A DNA stretch of 24,265 nucleotides from a virus. The position numbers were made by a program, and so were the translations under genes. The notes beneath the pieces are model-generated. The model ran no database searches. It worked only from the letters and a program-made list of their open reading frames with translations, and was not told where the DNA came from. The stretch's first letter is position 1; the number at the start of each line of letters is the position of its first letter. Positions 4,689 through 13,430 of the stretch are shown piece after piece. The stretch covers positions 1-24,265 of the IMG/VR virus record IMGVR_UViG_3300043137_000138, one strand, 5' to 3'.

Positions 4689-6851
4689 TTACGCAATCAA
4701 TTCAACAAAGCGGTTTAATAAAATCTTATTTTTGATTTTATTAGCCATAGAAGCCGTAAATGCAGAAGCCACATCTTCAACAGAATCTTCGGTATCGACC
4801 TCAATATTCGATTCGCTAGTGTTAGATTTAGCTAACGCATCGCTAGGAATATAGAAGAACTCGTCATGCGGGGAACCGCTAACCGATACGTATTGATTCT
4901 TAGCGTATTGTTCCACGGCTTCTTTATATGTAGTAAAAGTTCTCTCATAACGCTTCAATTCGTTATAACCTCTACCACAATTAGAAGTTAAGACATTACT
5001 CTCAAAAAAGTCCTTACTAGCTAAGCTACCACCGATATAAAAGCCAATACTAGGACATTTATATCTATCTTTAATCATTTTAATTAAAGAGAAAGTTTGT
5101 ACTGCCGAAGAACCCATAGGATATTCGATTTTAGTCTTTTGGTCTCTAAGAATAACCTCTCTCTTATAACCACCGTTATTGTAATATACTGAAGTAGATT
5201 CGCCGTCAGTTAAAGTGATAAAAGAGAACTTTTCCACTTTAGTAGAAGCTAAAAAATGATCAATATATTCGGTCATATAAGCCAAAGAATTATTCAGCGG
5301 AGTAGAACCAGTGTCAAAACCCTCAATTCTACGGAAAGGACGAGTTCTAAACAAACGCTTAGCCATAGTCTTGAATTCAGAAGAACTCATCTCATTAGAG
5401 AAAAATTCCAATAATCTAAACTCAGAACACTCATTAGTCAGCATACCATCATTTCTGTGTAGATTAGTGCTAGCTGCAGCTCTGTGGTCTCTGATTTGAG
5501 AGGTAGTAGTGGTATTATCGCTGAACGCTAATACTTTATACTTAATCTGGTTTTTATGACAGAAGTAAGCTAAAGGAATAAGTTGAGCCATAGTATCGTC
5601 TAACATATCATTCATAGAACCAGACCAATCTAGCAAGAAAATCATACCATGGTTCTTACCGTTAGGTAATGTAGTAATGCTCTTGAATAAGTCTTCTTTT
5701 AACTTATAAGCGTAAAGCTTACGAGTGTCTAAAGCACCGCTCTTAGAAACTTGGGCACGTTTGTATTGAGTGGCACTCTTACGCATCTCGAACTCTTTAG
5801 TCAAATAAGACACCGCACTATTCATAGAGGTGTAAAACTTATCAAACGCACGAGGGCTTTCAGCAACAGTTTTAGTTTTAGCTAAAATTTCCTGATAACC
5901 CATAACACGTTCTAGTAAAACGTTTTCGTCTACTTTGGTATAGGCGTAGTCAATACCGTTATCTACACCAACGTTATCTTTAATAGCGTTTAAGGTTTTA
6001 GATTCTAAAGCCGATTCATCTAGAGGGGAAGGCTTGTTACCGCTTTTGCTAGAGCCATTATTTTGACCTTCGGCGTCTTGGTTGTCTTCGCCATCTTCAT
6101 CACCGTCGGAAGAGTCACTTTCAGAATCGTTATCATCTTCATCATCACTTTCTTGGTCAGATTTATCGGAGTCGCTTGTATCATTGTCGCTAGAGGGCGT
6201 ACCACTCTGGCTACCGTTAGATTTACCCTTTGAATCTTTATCAGATTCGCCTTTATCCTTACCGTCGCCATCCTCACCTTCCTCACCGTCGTCAGACTGA
6301 GGTTCTTGTTGTTTCTTAGAGTATTCTAAGATTTCACGAGCAATTCGATTAACGTCATCTTCAGAAACGCAAGCCTCTACCGCATCATACAAATCACGCT
6401 CTTCAGCCGTAAAACTGACGCCAGCGTTATGACCTAACTTAGAATATAAGTTAATGCGGTCAATTAAGTTGAGTTGAGAAAACGATACCTTTTTACCAAA
6501 AATACCCTTATCTGAAAGCTCAGAATAACCGATAGAGAAGTCTTTAGCGATACCTGGATACTTACGCTTCACCAACTTCTCAACACGGATATTATCTACA
6601 ACTTTAGAATATTGGTTTAGCAACTTATCGTTACCGACTAAAGTTTTTAGCTTTGAGGTAGTATAAAGGGCGTGACCTACTTCTTGACCGATTAAAGCGG
6701 TCTCAGCCTGTTTAGAAATACCCTTCCACTGGGGAAGTACCAAAGTACGGGTTTTGATGTCGAACTTTGATTCATTAACCTTTTTACGAAAAATATTGAT
6801 ATTTTCGGTAGCTAATAATTTAGCGGTAAGGTCTAACACGTTTTGTTTCAT
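4689..6851 (-). CDS. cobT: CobT-like VWA-domain protein with zincin-like motif
   Basis: A 720-residue partner of the CobS-like ATPase. Residues 1-180 form an alpha-rich domain with QEVGHALYT at 56-64 and RVEKLVKRKYPG at 89-100, a layout like the metallopeptidase-type N-terminus of phage CobT-like proteins. Residues about 182-272 are a very acidic Asp/Glu/Ser linker. Residues 400-560 are a VWA domain with MIDAS residues in DWSGS (408-412), a Thr in GSTPL (about 515-519) and the Asp of TDGES (about 549). The start has AAGGAG upstream. The usual HExxH zinc motif appears as QExxH, so protease activity is doubtful. It is transcribed from its own dyad-associated early promoter. The peptide or DNA target is unknown. 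Confidence 0.88.
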   Translation of the reverse strand: MKQNVLDLTAKLLATENINIFRKKVNESKFDIKTRTLVLPQWKGISKQAETALIGQEVGHALYTTSKLKTLVGNDKLLNQYSKVVDNIRVEKLVKRKYPGIAKDFSIGYSELSDKGIFGKKVSFSQLNLIDRINLYSKLGHNAGVSFTAEERDLYDAVEACVSEDDVNRIAREILEYSKKQQEPQSDDGEEGEDGDGKDKGESDKDSKGKSNGSQSGTPSSDNDTSDSDKSDQESDDEDDNDSESDSSDGDEDGEDNQDAEGQNNGSSKSGNKPSPLDESALESKTLNAIKDNVGVDNGIDYAYTKVDENVLLERVMGYQEILAKTKTVAESPRAFDKFYTSMNSAVSYLTKEFEMRKSATQYKRAQVSKSGALDTRKLYAYKLKEDLFKSITTLPNGKNHGMIFLLDWSGSMNDMLDDTMAQLIPLAYFCHKNQIKYKVLAFSDNTTTTSQIRDHRAAASTNLHRNDGMLTNECSEFRLLEFFSNEMSSSEFKTMAKRLFRTRPFRRIEGFDTGSTPLNNSLAYMTEYIDHFLASTKVEKFSFITLTDGESTSVYYNNGGYKREVILRDQKTKIEYPMGSSAVQTFSLIKMIKDRYKCPSIGFYIGGSLASKDFFESNVLTSNCGRGYNELKRYERTFTTYKEAVEQYAKNQYVSVSGSPHDEFFYIPSDALAKSNTSESNIEVDTEDSVEDVASAFTASMANKIKNKILLNRFVELIA

Positions 6852-6873
6852 AGCAAATTTCTCCTTATAGTAT

Positions 6874-6912
6874 ATTATAAACTAAAAGGCTTTGTAAGTA
6901 AAGCCTTTTAGT
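6874..6912 (-). promoter_or_regulatory. Early promoter of cobT within 13-bp inverted repeat
   Basis: Minus strand TTTACT (6897-6902), 17 bases, TATAAT (6874-6879), with TACAA after the -35. The arms ACTAAAAGGCTTT (minus; 6900-6912) and AAAGCCTTTTAGT (6881-6893) pair perfectly over 13 bases around a six-base loop, and the -35 lies across one arm and the loop. The DNA follows the gp46 stop directly, so the hairpin with its trailing TT-TATAAT could also end gp46 transcription. Confidence 0.78.
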
Positions 6913-6921
6913 AGATATTTT

Positions 6922-8634
6922 TTAGTTCACCATAACAGAAAAGTCGTTTCGTTTTTCAAACTTAATAACGGAACGGAACTTATCGAATAACACGTCTTGT
7001 TTATGGGTTATCACAAATACGTTTGAATCCGCAAACTGATCCAACACACCCATTAACAAATCGGTAGAACTAGAGTCTAAGGAAGAATCGAAGATTTCGT
7101 CCATAAACAATAGGTTAGTATTTACCGAGTTTTTCATTTTAGCGATATGTCTCCACGTGAATAGTATTGCTAAGTCAATCTTCTGTTTCTCACCCTCAGA
7201 AAAGCTATCGTAAGTGAATTTATCTCGGAACCTAGATCTAATAGTTTCATTAAAAGATTCGTCAAGCTCAAAGTGAATATACGTATCCATAGCGTTCAAA
7301 TACTTGTTAATCAATTTATTCATAACAGGTAGGTATTGCTTAATAATAGCGGTTTTAATACCCGTATCTTTAAGCAAGATAGAAGCTACGTCCTCTAGCG
7401 ATTTACGCTTATCCAACATCAACCTTTCCGCCATCTTGTCTTTGGTTTCCTTAGCCATAACCCGTAGTTTATCACGCTCAACTTCGATATCACCACCGCT
7501 ACCGTTTATAGAAGCAATCTCTCGCTTAATGGTATCAATCTCCTTAATCATATAGTTCTTACTATGATTCTTGACTTGGATTTCATTAAACACAGTTACT
7601 AACTTATCGCTAGTGGCTTTAAAGTCTAAATTAAGCTTAGACAAAGTAGCTAGGTCATTAGACAGCTTGGACTTCTTAGCTGAGGTAGCCTCTACCTCAA
7701 GAATCAACTCATGCATAACGGTATCGTAGTGCGTTTTAGGGATTTCTTGAGAGCAAGTCGGACAGGAACTGTTCTCATGGAAAAACTTAGACTTATTACT
7801 ACAAGTAGCTAAATTTTGGTCAAGCTTGGATATAGAAGATTGAAGTTTAACAATACCGCTTTGAAGCCTATCGGAATCTTTAAGTTTGTCTTTAAGTTTC
7901 TCGGAAGCTTGTAAATCCTCGGTAATTTGTGCGTCTAAATCGGCAATATTCGCTTCATGTTCGGCTATCTTTTCTTCCAGCTTGCGAATATTAGAATCTT
8001 TAACATCAGTAAGCGTTTTCATAATAGCTAGCTGGTGTTGGACTTGCGTTTTAGATATACGTATATCCGAATCCAACTGAGCCATTTGTTGGCGGGTTTC
8101 TGATACCTTATTCTTCAATACGCTATTCATAGTAGAGAAGATTTTAATATCTAAAATATCTTCAATTACTTCTCTACGTGAATTAGTCGATAACTGCATA
8201 AAGGGTTCGTACGAAGCTGAGCCCAAGATAACCACTTGGGTAAAGGTACGGTAGTTTAAACCAAGAATTTGTTGCTCTAGGACTTTCTGATAATCTTTAG
8301 AAGCGGCATCTTGGTTTAACATAGTACCATCTACCCAAATCTCAAATACGTTGGGGGAAATACCCCTAACGACTTTATACGATTTATTATCAGCGTCAAA
8401 CTCAATAGTAACCGTACAATTCTTACCGTTAATACTATTCACTAATAAGTTCTTTTTAATATTCCTAAACGGTTTACCGAAAAGAGCAAAGCAAATAGCA
8501 TCCAAAATTGTACTCTTACCGTCTCCGTTCTTACCGCTAATTAACGTAGTAGAAGAACGGTTTAATAATACTTTAGTGGGGGAGTTACCCGTTGAGAGTA
8601 GATTTTTCCATTCGATAGATTTAAATACGACCAT
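6922..8634 (-). CDS. gp46: Recombination endonuclease subunit gp46 (SbcC/Rad50-like)
   Basis: ATPase subunit of the gp46/gp47 complex, the phage Rad50-Mre11 homologue that resects DNA ends for recombination-dependent replication and host DNA breakdown. Walker A GKNGDGKST is at residues 34-42. Long coiled coils (about 170-290 and 300-400) flank the zinc-hook CPTC at 291-294. The ABC signature FSEGEKQKIDLA is followed by Walker B LLFMDEIFDSSLD and a switch His in FVITHKQ. Length (570) matches T4 gp46 (560). AAAGG lies before the ATG. The gene lies nine bases after gene 47, so the two subunits are co-expressed. Confidence 0.97.
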   Translation of the reverse strand: MVVFKSIEWKNLLSTGNSPTKVLLNRSSTTLISGKNGDGKSTILDAICFALFGKPFRNIKKNLLVNSINGKNCTVTIEFDADNKSYKVVRGISPNVFEIWVDGTMLNQDAASKDYQKVLEQQILGLNYRTFTQVVILGSASYEPFMQLSTNSRREVIEDILDIKIFSTMNSVLKNKVSETRQQMAQLDSDIRISKTQVQHQLAIMKTLTDVKDSNIRKLEEKIAEHEANIADLDAQITEDLQASEKLKDKLKDSDRLQSGIVKLQSSISKLDQNLATCSNKSKFFHENSSCPTCSQEIPKTHYDTVMHELILEVEATSAKKSKLSNDLATLSKLNLDFKATSDKLVTVFNEIQVKNHSKNYMIKEIDTIKREIASINGSGGDIEVERDKLRVMAKETKDKMAERLMLDKRKSLEDVASILLKDTGIKTAIIKQYLPVMNKLINKYLNAMDTYIHFELDESFNETIRSRFRDKFTYDSFSEGEKQKIDLAILFTWRHIAKMKNSVNTNLLFMDEIFDSSLDSSSTDLLMGVLDQFADSNVFVITHKQDVLFDKFRSVIKFEKRNDFSVMVN

Positions 8635-8643
8635 AATTTACCT

Positions 8644-9702
8644 TTATACAACTTCCTCATTTAACGCTTCGGTGTAAAGCGTTTTCATAAACGTTTTAAT
8701 ATCTTCTTTATCATCTTCGTTGGCTACCGAATCTACGTAATTAGCCAACACAGACATAGTATCTTCTAAATCAACAGCTTCATCTACCGTACCCTCGCTA
8801 TACTCAGATAGGTCTTCCATAATTTTGATTTCAAAGCAACCCTTTGTGTAAAGTTTCTGAATGAATTTATCAAACATATAGAAGTCAGTTTTGTGAGTTA
8901 CCACTACCCGAACGAAACAATCTTTTAAGTTTAAAGCGTCTAAATCAGGAACTTCACCCGTATCATCGTATTCCAATCTACAGAAAATAGTATTTGGATT
9001 TTGTACAAATTCTAATTCTCTTGTTTCAGGGTTGAATAGGTGAAACCCCCTAGGGTCAGCAAAGTCTTGCCAAGTAAGCTCGTACGGATTACCCAAATAG
9101 TGAATATGACCCGAGCTAGACTTGTGGTGATAGTGACCGCTGAATACCGTATCGAACTTGTCAAATATAGAAGGGTTTAAACCTTCATGACTTTCCATAC
9201 CACGGTACATAGCGAAACCCGCTATCTCAAAGTGACCCATACAAATATCAGCGTTAGTATCTCTAATAAAATCAAAGCTCTCAACGCTATTATCCGCACA
9301 AATCCAAGGCATCATAGCAATAGTAACATTATTGATAACAATATTGGTAGGTGAATCAATAACGTTTACATTGTTATATTCTTGTAATAGTAACTTAGGG
9401 GAATTAACCGAATTAGTATTTTTGAAAGCGGTATCGTGATTACCCGCAATCATGTTAATATAAATTCCACGTTTCTCCGCTTCGTCAAAGAAAATACGTT
9501 TAGCGTGGTGTAGGGTTACGTGGCTAGTGTATTTTCTTCGGTCAAAGGTATCTCCCAACATTAAAATATTAGTAACGCCCTCAGCTTCTAACCGAGGGAA
9601 GAAAGTACCCTTATAAAACTCCTCAAAGAATTTAATAAAAAGAGGGCTATCATTTCTAGCCCCCCAATGCGTATCCGTGATTATAGCTACTTTACGACTC
9701 AT
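8644..9702 (-). CDS. gp47: Recombination nuclease subunit gp47 (SbcD/Mre11-like)
   Basis: Mn-dependent nuclease partner of gp46. The metallophosphoesterase motifs are in order: D10 and H12 (ITDTHWG), GDTFDRR from residue 50, GNHD at 87-90, GHFE at 156-159, and GHYHHK at 189-194. All expected metal ligands are present. The 352-residue length fits the family (T4 gp47 is 339). The start ATG overlaps the stop of the AAA+ gene as ATGA, with GGGA upstream, so translation is coupled. The acidic C-terminal part probably contacts gp46. Confidence 0.97.
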   Translation of the reverse strand: MSRKVAIITDTHWGARNDSPLFIKFFEEFYKGTFFPRLEAEGVTNILMLGDTFDRRKYTSHVTLHHAKRIFFDEAEKRGIYINMIAGNHDTAFKNTNSVNSPKLLLQEYNNVNVIDSPTNIVINNVTIAMMPWICADNSVESFDFIRDTNADICMGHFEIAGFAMYRGMESHEGLNPSIFDKFDTVFSGHYHHKSSSGHIHYLGNPYELTWQDFADPRGFHLFNPETRELEFVQNPNTIFCRLEYDDTGEVPDLDALNLKDCFVRVVVTHKTDFYMFDKFIQKLYTKGCFEIKIMEDLSEYSEGTVDEAVDLEDTMSVLANYVDSVANEDDKEDIKTFMKTLYTEALNEEVV

Positions 9703-10802
9703 ACAAATCCCATGGTTTTCTTACGGTTAATACCTTTTTCGGAAGGCTCTAAGTTGGTTTTAGAATTAAAAATCTCAGCAATAGAATAAGGTTTCGATTC
9801 ATCGGAACGCTCAAATAGCGGGATACCTAATTTATCGGCTAATACTTTAGCTTGATCAACGGTTAGGGGCTTAAACTCTAACACGTCGTGGCAACGTCCA
9901 GGACGTACCAAAGCAGCGTCTACATCAGTGATAGAGGGTAGGTTGGTTGAGAAAATTAGTTTCTTTGAAGAAGAAGCTACCAAACCATCACCAACATTCA
10001 AAAACTTATGCATCATTGTATTACCTTCAGTTCTTGAACTTAGGAAGTTGTCCGAATCTTCAAGAACCATAACGTTAGTATCAGATTCCAAAAAGCTAGC
10101 AAAGAAATTATCTTTAGATAAAATATTTGGGTCATAAGTAACGGAAGCCGAAGTTTTACTATGAGCCAATAACCCACGAATAAAGCTAGTTTTCCCAGTT
10201 CCAGGAGGTCCGATTAACAACAAGATATTAGAACTGGAATTCATAAACCTATCGTAATACTCAGTTAAAGGCTCACCTAAAAACGGATACATCTCATCAA
10301 TAGGTAAACGCTCTACGTTTAACGGTGAAGGGAAGTATTCACCGTACTCGGAATATACCCAACGAACCGTAGAACCAACAACATCAAAATCGTTGGTAAA
10401 CTTAGCTAACGTTTTATGAACCCAAGAAGGTGTACCAGTAATAGAGATTTTGGAGATTTCATTAGACGATTGAAACGCAATCATTTCAGTACAACCGTTA
10501 TCTCCGTCAATATTAACAAACCCCGCAAAATCGCTAGTGAACATAAGCATACTATTTTCATATCGCTTTTCAATATAATCTCGCATAACTTCCTTACTAG
10601 AAACCAACTCAACAGTTCGGTTAATAGTAGGGGTTTTACTAGCTAGACGAGTTTCTAAAACCTTGTTTCTAGCGTACTTGTCGAATACTTCATTGGCTAA
10701 GTGTATATTTTGATTGGTCATATTATTAAGTGGTAATGATTTAGAAAGTTGTAAAGAACTTTCGTTTGCAAGGTCAGCTATAAGTTTATCAATTTTATTC
10801 AA
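9699..10802 (-). CDS. AAA+ ATPase between gp55 and gp47, role unknown
   Basis: A 367-residue protein with one C-terminal AAA+ module: Walker A GPPGTGKTS at 198-206, Walker B region VMVLEDSD at about 244-251 (Glu-Asp in place of the usual Asp-Glu), sensor 1 IFSTNLPS, and an arginine motif VRPGRC as in FtsH/Bcs1-type ATPases. The first 190 residues show no motif I recognise. The start is a TTG (10800-10802) overlapping the gp55 stop as TTGA, with GGGGAG five bases upstream; the next in-frame ATG is at codon 28. A similar ATPase occurs near gp55 and gp46/47 in some marine T4-like phages. Its partner is unknown, and a link to recombination or late transcription is inferred from position only. Confidence 0.8.
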   Translation of the reverse strand: MNKIDKLIADLANESSLQLSKSLPLNNMTNQNIHLANEVFDKYARNKVLETRLASKTPTINRTVELVSSKEVMRDYIEKRYENSMLMFTSDFAGFVNIDGDNGCTEMIAFQSSNEISKISITGTPSWVHKTLAKFTNDFDVVGSTVRWVYSEYGEYFPSPLNVERLPIDEMYPFLGEPLTEYYDRFMNSSSNILLLIGPPGTGKTSFIRGLLAHSKTSASVTYDPNILSKDNFFASFLESDTNVMVLEDSDNFLSSRTEGNTMMHKFLNVGDGLVASSSKKLIFSTNLPSITDVDAALVRPGRCHDVLEFKPLTVDQAKVLADKLGIPLFERSDESKPYSIAEIFNSKTNLEPSEKGINRKKTMGFV

Positions 10803-11314
10803 ACAAACTCCCCTAGGTCAGTTATTTGTTGAGTACGCTTTTTACGTTTAACAGCGGGAGCTTCTTGTGGAGGGTTATTTTGCATATACTCAATATAAGT
10901 ATTTTGAAACACCCCGCCCTCATCGTGTTCCTGAAGCTCAAATAAATCAAACGACATATCTTGTATTAGTTTACTTCTAATATAAGATTGTCGTTTTTCT
11001 TTGTTTATTCTACGTATAAAAGCGAAGAATATAACTTGTGTAAAATACGCAAAGGGGTTATCAGACTTATCAGGGTCAAAACTACTAATATATTGAATAC
11101 AATTTTCAATACCATCGGAAATCATTTCATCCCGATAGGAATAGTTTATAAAGTTAGGGCGATAGGAAACCCTAGTTGCTATTAAAAGAATACACTCCCC
11201 AATATAATTATTGAGGCGGGGTTTGCGTAAACCCGCTTCCTCAGCTTCTTTACACTTAAGCTTATATTCTTTTAACGCCTCCAAAAAATCTTTGTTATCT
11301 ACGTAGTGTGCCAT
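10799..11314 (-). CDS. gp55: Late-transcription sigma factor gp55
   Basis: gp55 is the T4-type sigma factor that directs host RNA polymerase to late promoters (TATAAATA and similar) and works with the gp45 clamp. The 171-residue protein shows the compact sigma-2-like core: WKQEM-like YRDEMISDGIENCIQYISSF at about 60-80, NPFAYFTQVIFFAFIRRINKEKRQ at about 86-109, then an acidic and basic tail. The ATG at 11312-11314 has AAAAGG upstream. It follows the structured non-coding gap and has its own TTTACT-17-TATAAT promoter. The next gene overlaps its stop by four bases. It would read the CTAAATA and TATAAATA elements of the structural module. Confidence 0.93.
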   Translation of the reverse strand: MAHYVDNKDFLEALKEYKLKCKEAEEAGLRKPRLNNYIGECILLIATRVSYRPNFINYSYRDEMISDGIENCIQYISSFDPDKSDNPFAYFTQVIFFAFIRRINKEKRQSYIRSKLIQDMSFDLFELQEHDEGGVFQNTYIEYMQNNPPQEAPAVKRKKRTQQITDLGEFV

Positions 11315-11344
11315 TTTAAAACCTTTTATACTTTAATTACCTTT

Positions 11345-11373
11345 ATTATAGTATAAAGTTTATTGTAAGTAAA
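11345..11373 (-). promoter_or_regulatory. Early promoter of gene 55
   Basis: Minus strand TTTACT (11368-11373), 17 bases, TATAAT (11345-11350), with TACAA following the -35. A six-base inverted repeat CTTTAT (11341-11346) and ATAAAG (11353-11358) overlaps the -10. The ATG of gp55 is about 30 bases downstream. Confidence 0.75.
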
Positions 11374-11406
11374 GTATTATATTTCGTAAAGATTAGGTAA
11401 AGTCGC

Positions 11407-11435
11407 TTGACTTACAACCGCTATCGCGATATAAT
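11407..11435 (+). promoter_or_regulatory. Plus-strand sigma70-type promoter
   Basis: TTGACT (11407-11412), 17 bases, TATAAT (11430-11435), with TACAA after the -35 as at the minus-strand early promoters. It is the only good plus-strand promoter I see, and it points away from gp55 toward the hairpin cluster. The arms TACAACC (11413-11419) and GGTTGTA (11443-11449) flank the -10, and a TATCGCGATA palindrome lies in the spacer and -10. Transcription would start near 11442. Confidence 0.7.
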
Positions 11436-11441
11436 ACCTTT

Positions 11442-11577
11442 AGGTTGTATTTTATGACTTAACTTTAGTTAAGGCACTGCGTAGCAGCGTTAGAAATAAC
11501 TGAGTACTAGACTAATAAAAACTAAGTCTGTGAGCCTTTGGCTCACCTGCCCGTAGGGCAGTAAGTGAGTGTCTAGT
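11442..11577 (+). ncRNA. Candidate structured non-coding RNA
   Basis: The region downstream of the plus-strand promoter folds into a series of perfect hairpins: CTTAAC/GTTAAG (11458-11473), CTGC/GCAG (11477-11487), GTGAGCC/GGCTCAC (11530-11546), and directly abutting CTGCCC/GGGCAG (11547-11561). The last two are enclosed by ACTAGAC (11506-11512) pairing with GTCTAGT (11571-11577). The only ATG in the transcript start (ATG-ACT-TAA) encodes nothing. I see no plus-strand T-run terminator, so the 3' end is unknown; the outer stem overlaps the stop codon of the neighbouring minus-strand gene. Alternatives are a minus-strand terminator cluster for the uvsW operon or a 5' leader structure for gene 55. 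Confidence 0.45.
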
Positions 11578-11950
11578 GTACTATACGGGGTTGGGTATCT
11601 GAAGGTTCTTCTTCTAAGCTTTCTTCCGTAACGTAACCTTGACTATCTACTGTGGCTGTAACCTTGGTTTCAAACGCTTTAACTAGGTTTAAGTAATGGT
11701 CAAGCAACGCTGAGTGTAAATCTTCCATTATAATAATATGATTAAAGGATATTGTATATTTCTTGGTAGCTGAATATTCACACCAAGGGTTAGCCGATAC
11801 GGACGGAACTAAATTACCATCTTCATCTTCCGTATGAAATACCCTAATTAACATAGGATTAGATATTACAACGGTTTCTGAAGGTTTGTTCTCAAGGGTA
11901 GCCAATAACTCTTCACCCGTTACTAATTTTAAAACAACATATTTATTCAA
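11573..11950 (-). CDS. Small Sm-like protein candidate between uvsW and gp55
   Basis: A 125-residue protein that opens YVVLKLVTGEELLATLEN and continues VVISNPMLIRVF. This strand pattern, with a Gly-Glu turn followed by an Asn-Pro, is like the Sm1 part of Sm/LSm-fold proteins, and similar small proteins sit next to uvsW in marine T4-like phages. The middle (about 70-95) has YTISFNHIIIMEDLHSALLDHY, and the C-terminal 30 residues are acidic and probably disordered. The start is TTG (11948-11950) with GGAG six bases upstream, overlapping the UvsW stop by eight bases. The nearby ATG is out of frame. An RNA-binding role is inference from fold resemblance only. Confidence 0.75.
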   Translation of the reverse strand: MNKYVVLKLVTGEELLATLENKPSETVVISNPMLIRVFHTEDEDGNLVPSVSANPWCEYSATKKYTISFNHIIIMEDLHSALLDHYLNLVKAFETKVTATVDSQGYVTEESLEEEPSDTQPRIVH

Positions 11951-13430
11951 GATTCACTCCTAATAGTTTAACATTAAATTGCTCTTCAGCGTATATTTTA
12001 TAACGCTCCGCAGCGTGTCTAAGCGTATGGTTAGCGTTCTTTTTCCACTGTAAATCATCCGCTATATCATACAGATTACAAATAGTCTTACCGTTATTAA
12101 GCCTCAACCCACGCCCAATACTTTGTAAGTTACGAATTTTACCCTTGCTAGGCGAAGCAAATACAATATTCTCAATAGAAGGAATATTGATACCCGTTGA
12201 GAATGTGCCGAAACTAGCTACAATAATAGCATTAGTTTCCTTTGCGCATAGTGCTCTAATTTCTTCTCGTCTAGCGGTATCTGTACCCCCGTGTACAAAG
12301 AATACTTTCCTACCGTCCTCAACCCCCTCCTCTATCATTTTATGTAACACCTTACCGTGTTTTTCTACGAATTGGAATAACACTAAACTATTCCCCTCAC
12401 ACTTCAACACTAGGTCGGTAATGTATTGGTTTCGTTTATGGTTAGTTACAACGAAGTCTAATTCGGTTTGATAGTCCGACTTATTCATTTCTTTACGAAT
12501 AGCTTCGGGGTACTTTAAAACAACGCAAGTGATAGCTAATTGGGTTAAGCTACCTTGATCCATTAGTTTCTTAGTTGTGGTAACACGGTGTATTGGTCCA
12601 AAAATACCTTCCAAAACTAGCTGATGTACTTTTTTATTATCTAAAGTACCCGTTGTTCCAATACGATACTTAACGTCCGCCATTTTCTCCATAACCGAAG
12701 TCAGCGACTTAGCTTTGAACTGGTGGGCTTCGTCCCCAAATATAACGTCAAACTGGTTAAACCAAGATTTAGGTTGTAAGTAAATAGATTGCCAAGTCGT
12801 GATTAAAACGTTACTAGCGATAACCTTAGAGAAGCCTGAATATAACTTTTGACAATGTTTATCAACGTCAAACCCGTTTACCGAGGAATACTCTCTAAAG
12901 TCAGACTGTAACTGCTCAACCAAAGACGTAGTAGGTACTATAATAATACACTTACGCTTTTTAGATAAATGCCACATCATTGTTAAGTAAATAATGAACG
13001 ATTTACCAGAAGCCGTAGGCGATAGTAATAGCACACGACTACGCTCTAAAGCGGTTTGAACCGCCTCTAGTTGATAATCCCTAATCTCAATAGGTTCCCC
13101 ACGGCTGTGCGGTTTCAACTTAGTAGAAAAGGCTAAAATATCCTCAGCGGAAACTTCCGTCTTTTCTAGTATAGGCGTTACGTATTCTACCGTATCGCCA
13201 TTTTCGTTGGCGAATCGCTCCACATACGAAACTAGACCTAGGTATAACGTTTTACGGATTGGGTCGTAAAGCCGAACCTTTCCGTCCCATAACCTAGCCC
13301 TAAATTGAGGAGTGAACTTGGCTCCAGGATATTCATAAGTGAAAAAATCGCATAATTCTTTTTCCGTAGAGGGTTCAGAATATATGCGAATAAAAACTTC
13401 GTCTAATTTTTCAATATGTATTACAGCCAT
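11943..13430 (-). CDS. uvsW: UvsW helicase
   Basis: SF2 DNA/RNA helicase that in T4 unwinds R-loops and branched DNA and moves replication from origin-dependent to recombination-dependent mode. The N-terminal 100 residues match the UvsW substrate-binding domain (FRARLWDGKVRLYD at about 43-56). Walker A SPTASGKSF is at 137-145, motif II DEAH at 233-236, a TGTLDN segment follows, and motif VI is QSIGRGLRL near the end. Length (495) fits T4 UvsW (about 500). It starts three bases after uvsY, so the two recombination genes are coupled. Confidence 0.96.
   Translation of the reverse strand: MAVIHIEKLDEVFIRIYSEPSTEKELCDFFTYEYPGAKFTPQFRARLWDGKVRLYDPIRKTLYLGLVSYVERFANENGDTVEYVTPILEKTEVSAEDILAFSTKLKPHSRGEPIEIRDYQLEAVQTALERSRVLLLSPTASGKSFIIYLTMMWHLSKKRKCIIIVPTTSLVEQLQSDFREYSSVNGFDVDKHCQKLYSGFSKVIASNVLITTWQSIYLQPKSWFNQFDVIFGDEAHQFKAKSLTSVMEKMADVKYRIGTTGTLDNKKVHQLVLEGIFGPIHRVTTTKKLMDQGSLTQLAITCVVLKYPEAIRKEMNKSDYQTELDFVVTNHKRNQYITDLVLKCEGNSLVLFQFVEKHGKVLHKMIEEGVEDGRKVFFVHGGTDTARREEIRALCAKETNAIIVASFGTFSTGINIPSIENIVFASPSKGKIRNLQSIGRGLRLNNGKTICNLYDIADDLQWKKNANHTLRHAAERYKIYAEEQFNVKLLGVNLE

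Follow-up and report, generated by a model that had tools for sequence, protein, structure and literature searches.

Analysis of the gap between the late sigma factor gene gp55 and the uvsW gene unit of an uncultivated virus revealed a cassette of about 235 bp, made up of a promoter and hairpins, that occurs three times in the 87.8-kb contig containing the window, each time oriented alike and against minus-strand genes. (The window is the whole 24,265-nt stretch of viral DNA analysed, and coordinates refer to it unless stated otherwise.) Among the roles that the initial annotation had offered for an RNA from this gap, antisense action is the one we favour: the cassettes could encode three near-identical early non-coding RNAs of ~125 nt that face the 3′ ends of late gene units and possibly pair with all three 3′ UTRs, a reading that we hold with somewhat less than even confidence.

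Phage and gene context

The contig has a GC content of 38.9%, and its Gp23 is 67% identical to that of Methylophilales phage Melnitz, the closest isolate, which places the phage in the T4-like aquatic group. The gap (11315-11572, 258 nt) separates the gene for a gp55-like late sigma factor (10799..11314, minus strand; phrog_234, E 4e-59) from that for an Sm-like protein (11573..11950, minus strand; phrog_471, and Pfam Sm_like at E 6e-6, a match falling under the curated cut-off), whose 3′ end is faced by the reverse promoter described below. The Sm-like gene lies downstream of uvsY and uvsW, the UvsW helicase gene (11943..13430, minus strand) being recognised by UvsW_N (E 1.6e-11), ResIII and Helicase_C domains; UvsY and Gp23 were also identified among the window genes. 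The element sits between the uvsW operon and the late sigma gene, as had been proposed from the sequence.

Some features of these genomes lie outside the gap. A gene for an AAA ATPase (9699-10802, phrog_14322) lies between gp55 and gp47, a position at which the annotated Melnitz and Synechococcus phage records compared have no ATPase. At locus L085, positions 6342-9257 encode a 971-aa gp5-like hub protein in which an OB domain is combined with an endolysin/chitinase-like stretch and, at the C terminus, a CHAP domain. Two long gaps of the contig (contig positions 1012-1540 and 19195-19695) contain no chosen ORF of at least 45 aa, and their GC content is 43-47% compared to 39% for the contig.

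Divergent promoters in the gap

The initial annotation called a plus-strand TTGACT-17-TATAAT promoter in the gap, and we found it at 11407..11435, with a -35 box TTGACT (11407-11412, followed by TACAA), a -10 box TATAAT (11430-11435) and 11/12 consensus matches. Its 17-nt spacer falls within the 16-18 nt that separate the hexamers of sigma70-type promoters, and only one other of 44 promoter-like sites in 13.5 kb scored as high. Divergent from it is the gp55 promoter, TTTACT(TACAA)-17 nt-TATAAT (11345..11373, minus strand), which belongs to a family common to seven other minus-strand promoters of the contig. The extended -35 had been said to be shared with early phage promoters, and TTKACTTACAA-N10..14-TAWANT has 11 sites in the 87.8-kb contig; eight are minus-strand sites, and the remaining three, on the plus strand, are those of the three cassette copies.

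The two promoters have a central block in common, TTTCGTAAAGATTAGGTAAAGTCGC, which together with the plus-strand -35, TTGACTTACAA, spans 11382..11417 and is identical in 3/3 copies. Between the divergent -35 boxes sits a direct repeat of GTAAAG with an 11-bp period (GTAAAGATTAGGTAAAG; 11386..11402, plus strand), which is present once in each cassette and nowhere else in the contig; its geometry resembles a two-site regulator box, and it may be a regulator site.

Three copies probably under selection

BLAST within the contig placed three full copies of the cassette, all on the plus strand, at contig positions 13345-13577, 47921-48158 (that of the window) and 81157-81382. No other DNA repeat of the contig is as strong: cassette alignments score 197-222 bits, compared to 66 for the next repeat. 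Alignment of the copies showed four identical blocks: 36 nt between the -35 boxes including the plus-strand -35, the -10 box with the next 9 nt, the 5′ RNA block, which holds hairpins H1 and H2, and the 39-nt 3′ RNA block, which holds hairpins H3 and H4 and the sequence TAAGT. Conserved runs of 39, 38, 22 and 17 columns were matched by none of 20,000 permutations, whereas in the 12-nt promoter spacer pairs of copies share just 1, 3 and 5 of 12 bases. Because neighbouring bases have drifted to near-randomness, selection rather than recent duplication best explains the identical blocks.

Within the contig, twin hairpins H3-H4 and a plus-strand promoter of this type occur together in all three places and neither is found alone; the twin-hairpin pattern was also found once in another contig of this species, 99.99% identical to the first. 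The cassette was found in this one species only (two contigs). BLASTN against phage and plasmid collections gave matches at chance level only, and the twin-hairpin pattern had two matches in 84,980 prokaryote genomes (an archaeal MAG and an actinobacterial MAG), which we take as chance. Pattern searches of IMG/VR with the 5′ block, the promoter and the GTAAAG repeat likewise recovered the cassette from the same species only, the other matches being without it.

Hairpins and the predicted RNA

Perfect stems of 6, 4, 7 and 6 pairs, two of them abutting, were expected from the initial annotation, and all four were found: H1 (CTTAAC/GTTAAG, 11458-11473, 6 bp), H2 (CTGC/GCAG, 11477-11487, 4 bp), H3 (GTGAGCC/GGCTCAC, 11530-11546, 7 bp) and H4 (CTGCCC/GGGCAG, 11547-11561, 6 bp), which abuts H3. 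The enclosing 7-pair outer stem (ACTAGAC/GTCTAGT, 11506-11577) is present in the window but not clearly conserved in the two paralogous copies, which keep about 6 and 4 of the 7 pairs. Its positional pairing was better than in most shuffles (3/500) and its duplex energy was at shuffle level; some pair-preserving change was seen, and this was better on the plus strand.

Taking the start as 7 nt past the -10 box and the end as the last conserved base, the predicted non-coding RNA would extend over 11442..11566 on the plus strand (~125 nt), with lengths of 121, 125 and 126 nt across the three copies. It would consist of a conserved 5′ block carrying H1 and H2 (11458..11487; CTTAAC..GTTAAG and GGCACTGCGTAGCAG), with stems identical in all copies, a spacer that varies in the copy alignment (11488..11516), and the twin hairpins plus TAAGT (11530..11566), identical in all copies. 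In the window the twin hairpins lie 11 nt past the stop codon of the minus-strand Sm-like gene.

The element contains no conserved ORF, in agreement with the initial annotation: plus-strand peptides of the predicted RNA do not exceed 17 aa and differ between copies, except for two 8-aa frames within an identical block. A small plus-strand peptide was thus rejected as a candidate product, nothing being conserved outside the identical block. Searches of Rfam 15 at gathering and relaxed thresholds matched the gap element to no family, and no tRNA or tmRNA was found within the window.

A reverse promoter conserved among relatives

Comparison with related phages, collected through gp55 (80 loci, with Sm-like/gp55 gaps mostly of 110-160 nt), revealed divergent promoters in the aligned gaps, with the -35 boxes lying within an inverted repeat. 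All 39 non-redundant relatives, whose gaps have a mean pairwise identity of 53%, carry on the plus strand a -35-like hexamer and a -10 separated by exactly 17 nt, and in 34 of them the -10/start block outscored all shuffles under a model built without the scored sequence. The plus-strand promoter of the gap is also present in Melnitz and in the Synechococcus phages S-H38, ACG-2014b and ACG-2014d. In five relatives (L143, L145, L146, L147 and L153) the -10/start motif, AACCATGTCGGGTTTGAT or AACGGTGTTAGGGTTGAT, recurs before sense genes, two of which are MazG-like as assigned by eye from the protein sequence; the motif therefore represents a working promoter type. These comparisons indicate that the reverse promoter is a conserved signal, ancestral in a group of T4-like aquatic phages.

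The start-site motif of the relatives is unlike the start region in the window, so only the position and spacing of the promoter are held in common, and the transcribed sequence downstream is not shared between the window phage and its relatives. The earlier proposal of an early-type plus-strand promoter feeding a conserved non-coding element is well supported by the position kept in the relatives and by the three paralogues in the contig. Our literature search, outside which many subscription papers lie, found no published account of a promoter in the uvsW-gp55 gap. In the Melnitz gap (MZ577097.1, 132258-132436; L167), a short minus-strand ‘hypothetical protein’ (132367-132462) has been annotated inside the gap that bears the reverse promoter; it could be a false gene call on promoter sequence.

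Cassettes at the 3′ ends of putative late units

Each cassette occupies a junction at which a minus-strand unit ends and the next gene begins. One copy lies between a spanin-like/coiled-coil unit and primase, the window copy between the capsid-uvsY-uvsW-Sm unit and gp55, and the remaining copy between gp5 and gp25. The plus-strand promoter faces minus-strand 3′ ends at all three, and the twin hairpins are always found 10-16 nt past a minus-strand stop codon. Late-type sites, NATAAATA, number 25 on the minus strand compared to one on the plus strand; some of these precede uvsY, and others precede genes above the other units, among them the gene unit above the spanin-like ORF. The units ending at the cassettes are thus probably of the late class, the expression class of the flanking genes being assigned from promoter motifs and gene identity alone. 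Because gp25 also bears a late-type site at its cassette, a scheme in which a late unit is followed by an early gene fits two junctions fully and the third partly.

We propose that each cassette acts as a pair of divergent sigma70-type early promoters around a common central block, the plus side of which would produce the structured non-coding RNA of ~125 nt. The predicted transcript would most likely be made by host RNA polymerase early in infection and would run as far as the twin hairpins beyond the stop codon of the late unit. Since the 3′ UTRs hold its complement, each RNA could pair both in cis and in trans with the three mRNAs. Such pairing, likewise a prediction, would either keep late-unit mRNAs low before the late switch or shield these mRNAs from decay.

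Transcribed strand and alternative explanations

The assignment of the RNA to the plus strand rests on promoter association rather than on folding. The fold z-score against shuffles was -3.83 for the minus strand compared to -0.90 for the plus strand, and in two window-type copies H2 can pair over 6 bp on the minus strand, compared to 4 bp on the plus strand of the window copy, whereas absolute fold energies of the conserved stretch were equal for the two strands within about 1 kcal/mol. H1-H4 give no covariation support because their stems never vary among the copies. Structure therefore does not decide which strand is transcribed, and the plus-strand RNA is favoured because the hairpins strictly co-occur with the plus-strand promoter. 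The minus-strand values nevertheless feed the main rival explanation, in which the hairpins function mainly as minus-strand 3′ ends of the three late units, acting as stops or decay barriers, and the reverse promoter serves as an insulator that limits read-through or causes collisions. This interpretation, which we regard as unlikely though worth serious weight, accounts for the constant position of the twin hairpins just past a stop codon, and on the minus strand the H4 loop reads as a UNCG-type cUACGg. However, no intrinsic terminator (a GC hairpin with an immediate T-run) was called at the twin hairpins on either strand, a T-run being absent after the hairpins, and the conserved 5′ block, the GTAAAG repeats and the strict co-occurrence with the plus-strand promoter would be left unexplained. 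The lack of an intrinsic terminator at the end of the predicted plus-strand RNA likewise weighs against our favoured reading. The two roles may also coexist.

Three near-identical paralogues with conserved ends, a variable middle and an early-type promoter would also be consistent with a trans-acting early small RNA or sponge with targets elsewhere in the host or phage, for which the three copies would provide dosage and the antisense position would be incidental. We consider this improbable, as the conserved position facing late units would go unexplained and the RNA has neither an Rfam match nor relatives outside the species. Less probable still is a transcription-primed (R-loop) replication origin, here near uvsY-uvsW, an option raised in the initial annotation. 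Roughly evenly spaced, the three non-coding gaps in 88 kb that each hold a promoter and a predicted transcript recall T4 oriF, which is located at uvsY (PMC3016281), but T4 origins require an A+T-rich unwinding element (PMC3016281), whereas the predicted transcribed stretch here has 41-42% GC compared to 38.9% for the contig and holds no such element, which weakens the proposal; GC skew also shows no turn at the three copies. Least probable, and in our view very doubtful, is an RNA anti-CRISPR in which H2 and H4 mimic the type I-F CRISPR repeat and titrate Cas6f. The stem CTGCC/GGCAG matches the I-F stem, and alignment scores to eight reference repeats beat random-hairpin controls (about 0.0013 to 0.007) and exceeded those of nearly all 200-nt contig tiles. 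The likeness is equally good on the strand opposite the promoter, however, indels bring identity well under the 90% used by SRUFinder (PMC10651486), and the E. coli I-F repeat aligns at best with three gaps and without its first three bases. The I-F-like sites in the window are at 11530-11561 (H4) and 11477-11496 (H2; CACTGC-GTA-GCAGC-TTAGAAA).

Comparison with known systems

The closest parallel to the antisense reading is CfrI of Synechococcus phage S-PM2 (PMC2984593), which documents antisense RNA in T4-like aquatic phages and is likewise a phage-encoded, antisense-facing non-coding RNA at a gene junction. CfrI is ~225 nt long and lies at psbA, whereas the window element is predicted to be ~125 nt long and is present in three copies at the gp55, primase and gp25 junctions. 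CfrI has been detected as RNA, whereas our element is known from its sequence, and the two are likened here by description. In cyanophages, antisense transcription has been suggested to be protective (PMC10976474). The repeats of halovirus HF2 are also dispersed, intergenic and promoter-bearing, with counter-transcripts reported, but they serve an archaeal virus as promoters of 29-58 bp, and the abstract makes no mention of a hairpin RNA block (PMC8707807).

Two other systems resemble the cassette in part. T4 oriF and oriG (PMC3016281) also combine a promoter with a non-coding transcript, and oriF adjoins uvsY, but these origins use MotA middle promoters with an A+T-rich unwinding element, compared to the sigma70 early type, with none seen, in the window. 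Racr and solitary CRISPR repeats in phages (PMC10651486) similarly have their own promoter and produce a short hairpin RNA from an intergenic region; Racr has one repeat, whereas the window has two different hairpins whose identity to CRISPR repeats is far below the published threshold.

Implications for T4-like aquatic phages

Because a promoter opposing the genes, with an exact 17-nt spacer, is kept in every diverged relative tested, many abundant aquatic phages probably transcribe some sequence against the uvsW unit. T4 UvsW is a late product that eliminates R-loops at origins; control by antisense RNA at this unit would therefore tie RNA regulation to the replication switch. More speculatively, and we think rather unlikely as a whole, an ancestral reverse early promoter at the boundary of the uvsW unit and gp55 may in this phage have been turned into a three-RNA family, a single address code that times or protects late mRNAs. 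With its three copies, the cassette would be an example, rare among phages, of several operons served by a single RNA sequence. In sum, the conserved reverse promoter and the hairpin-rich stretch that recurs with it make it probable that the cassettes represent a small, as yet uncharacterised family of regulatory RNAs.
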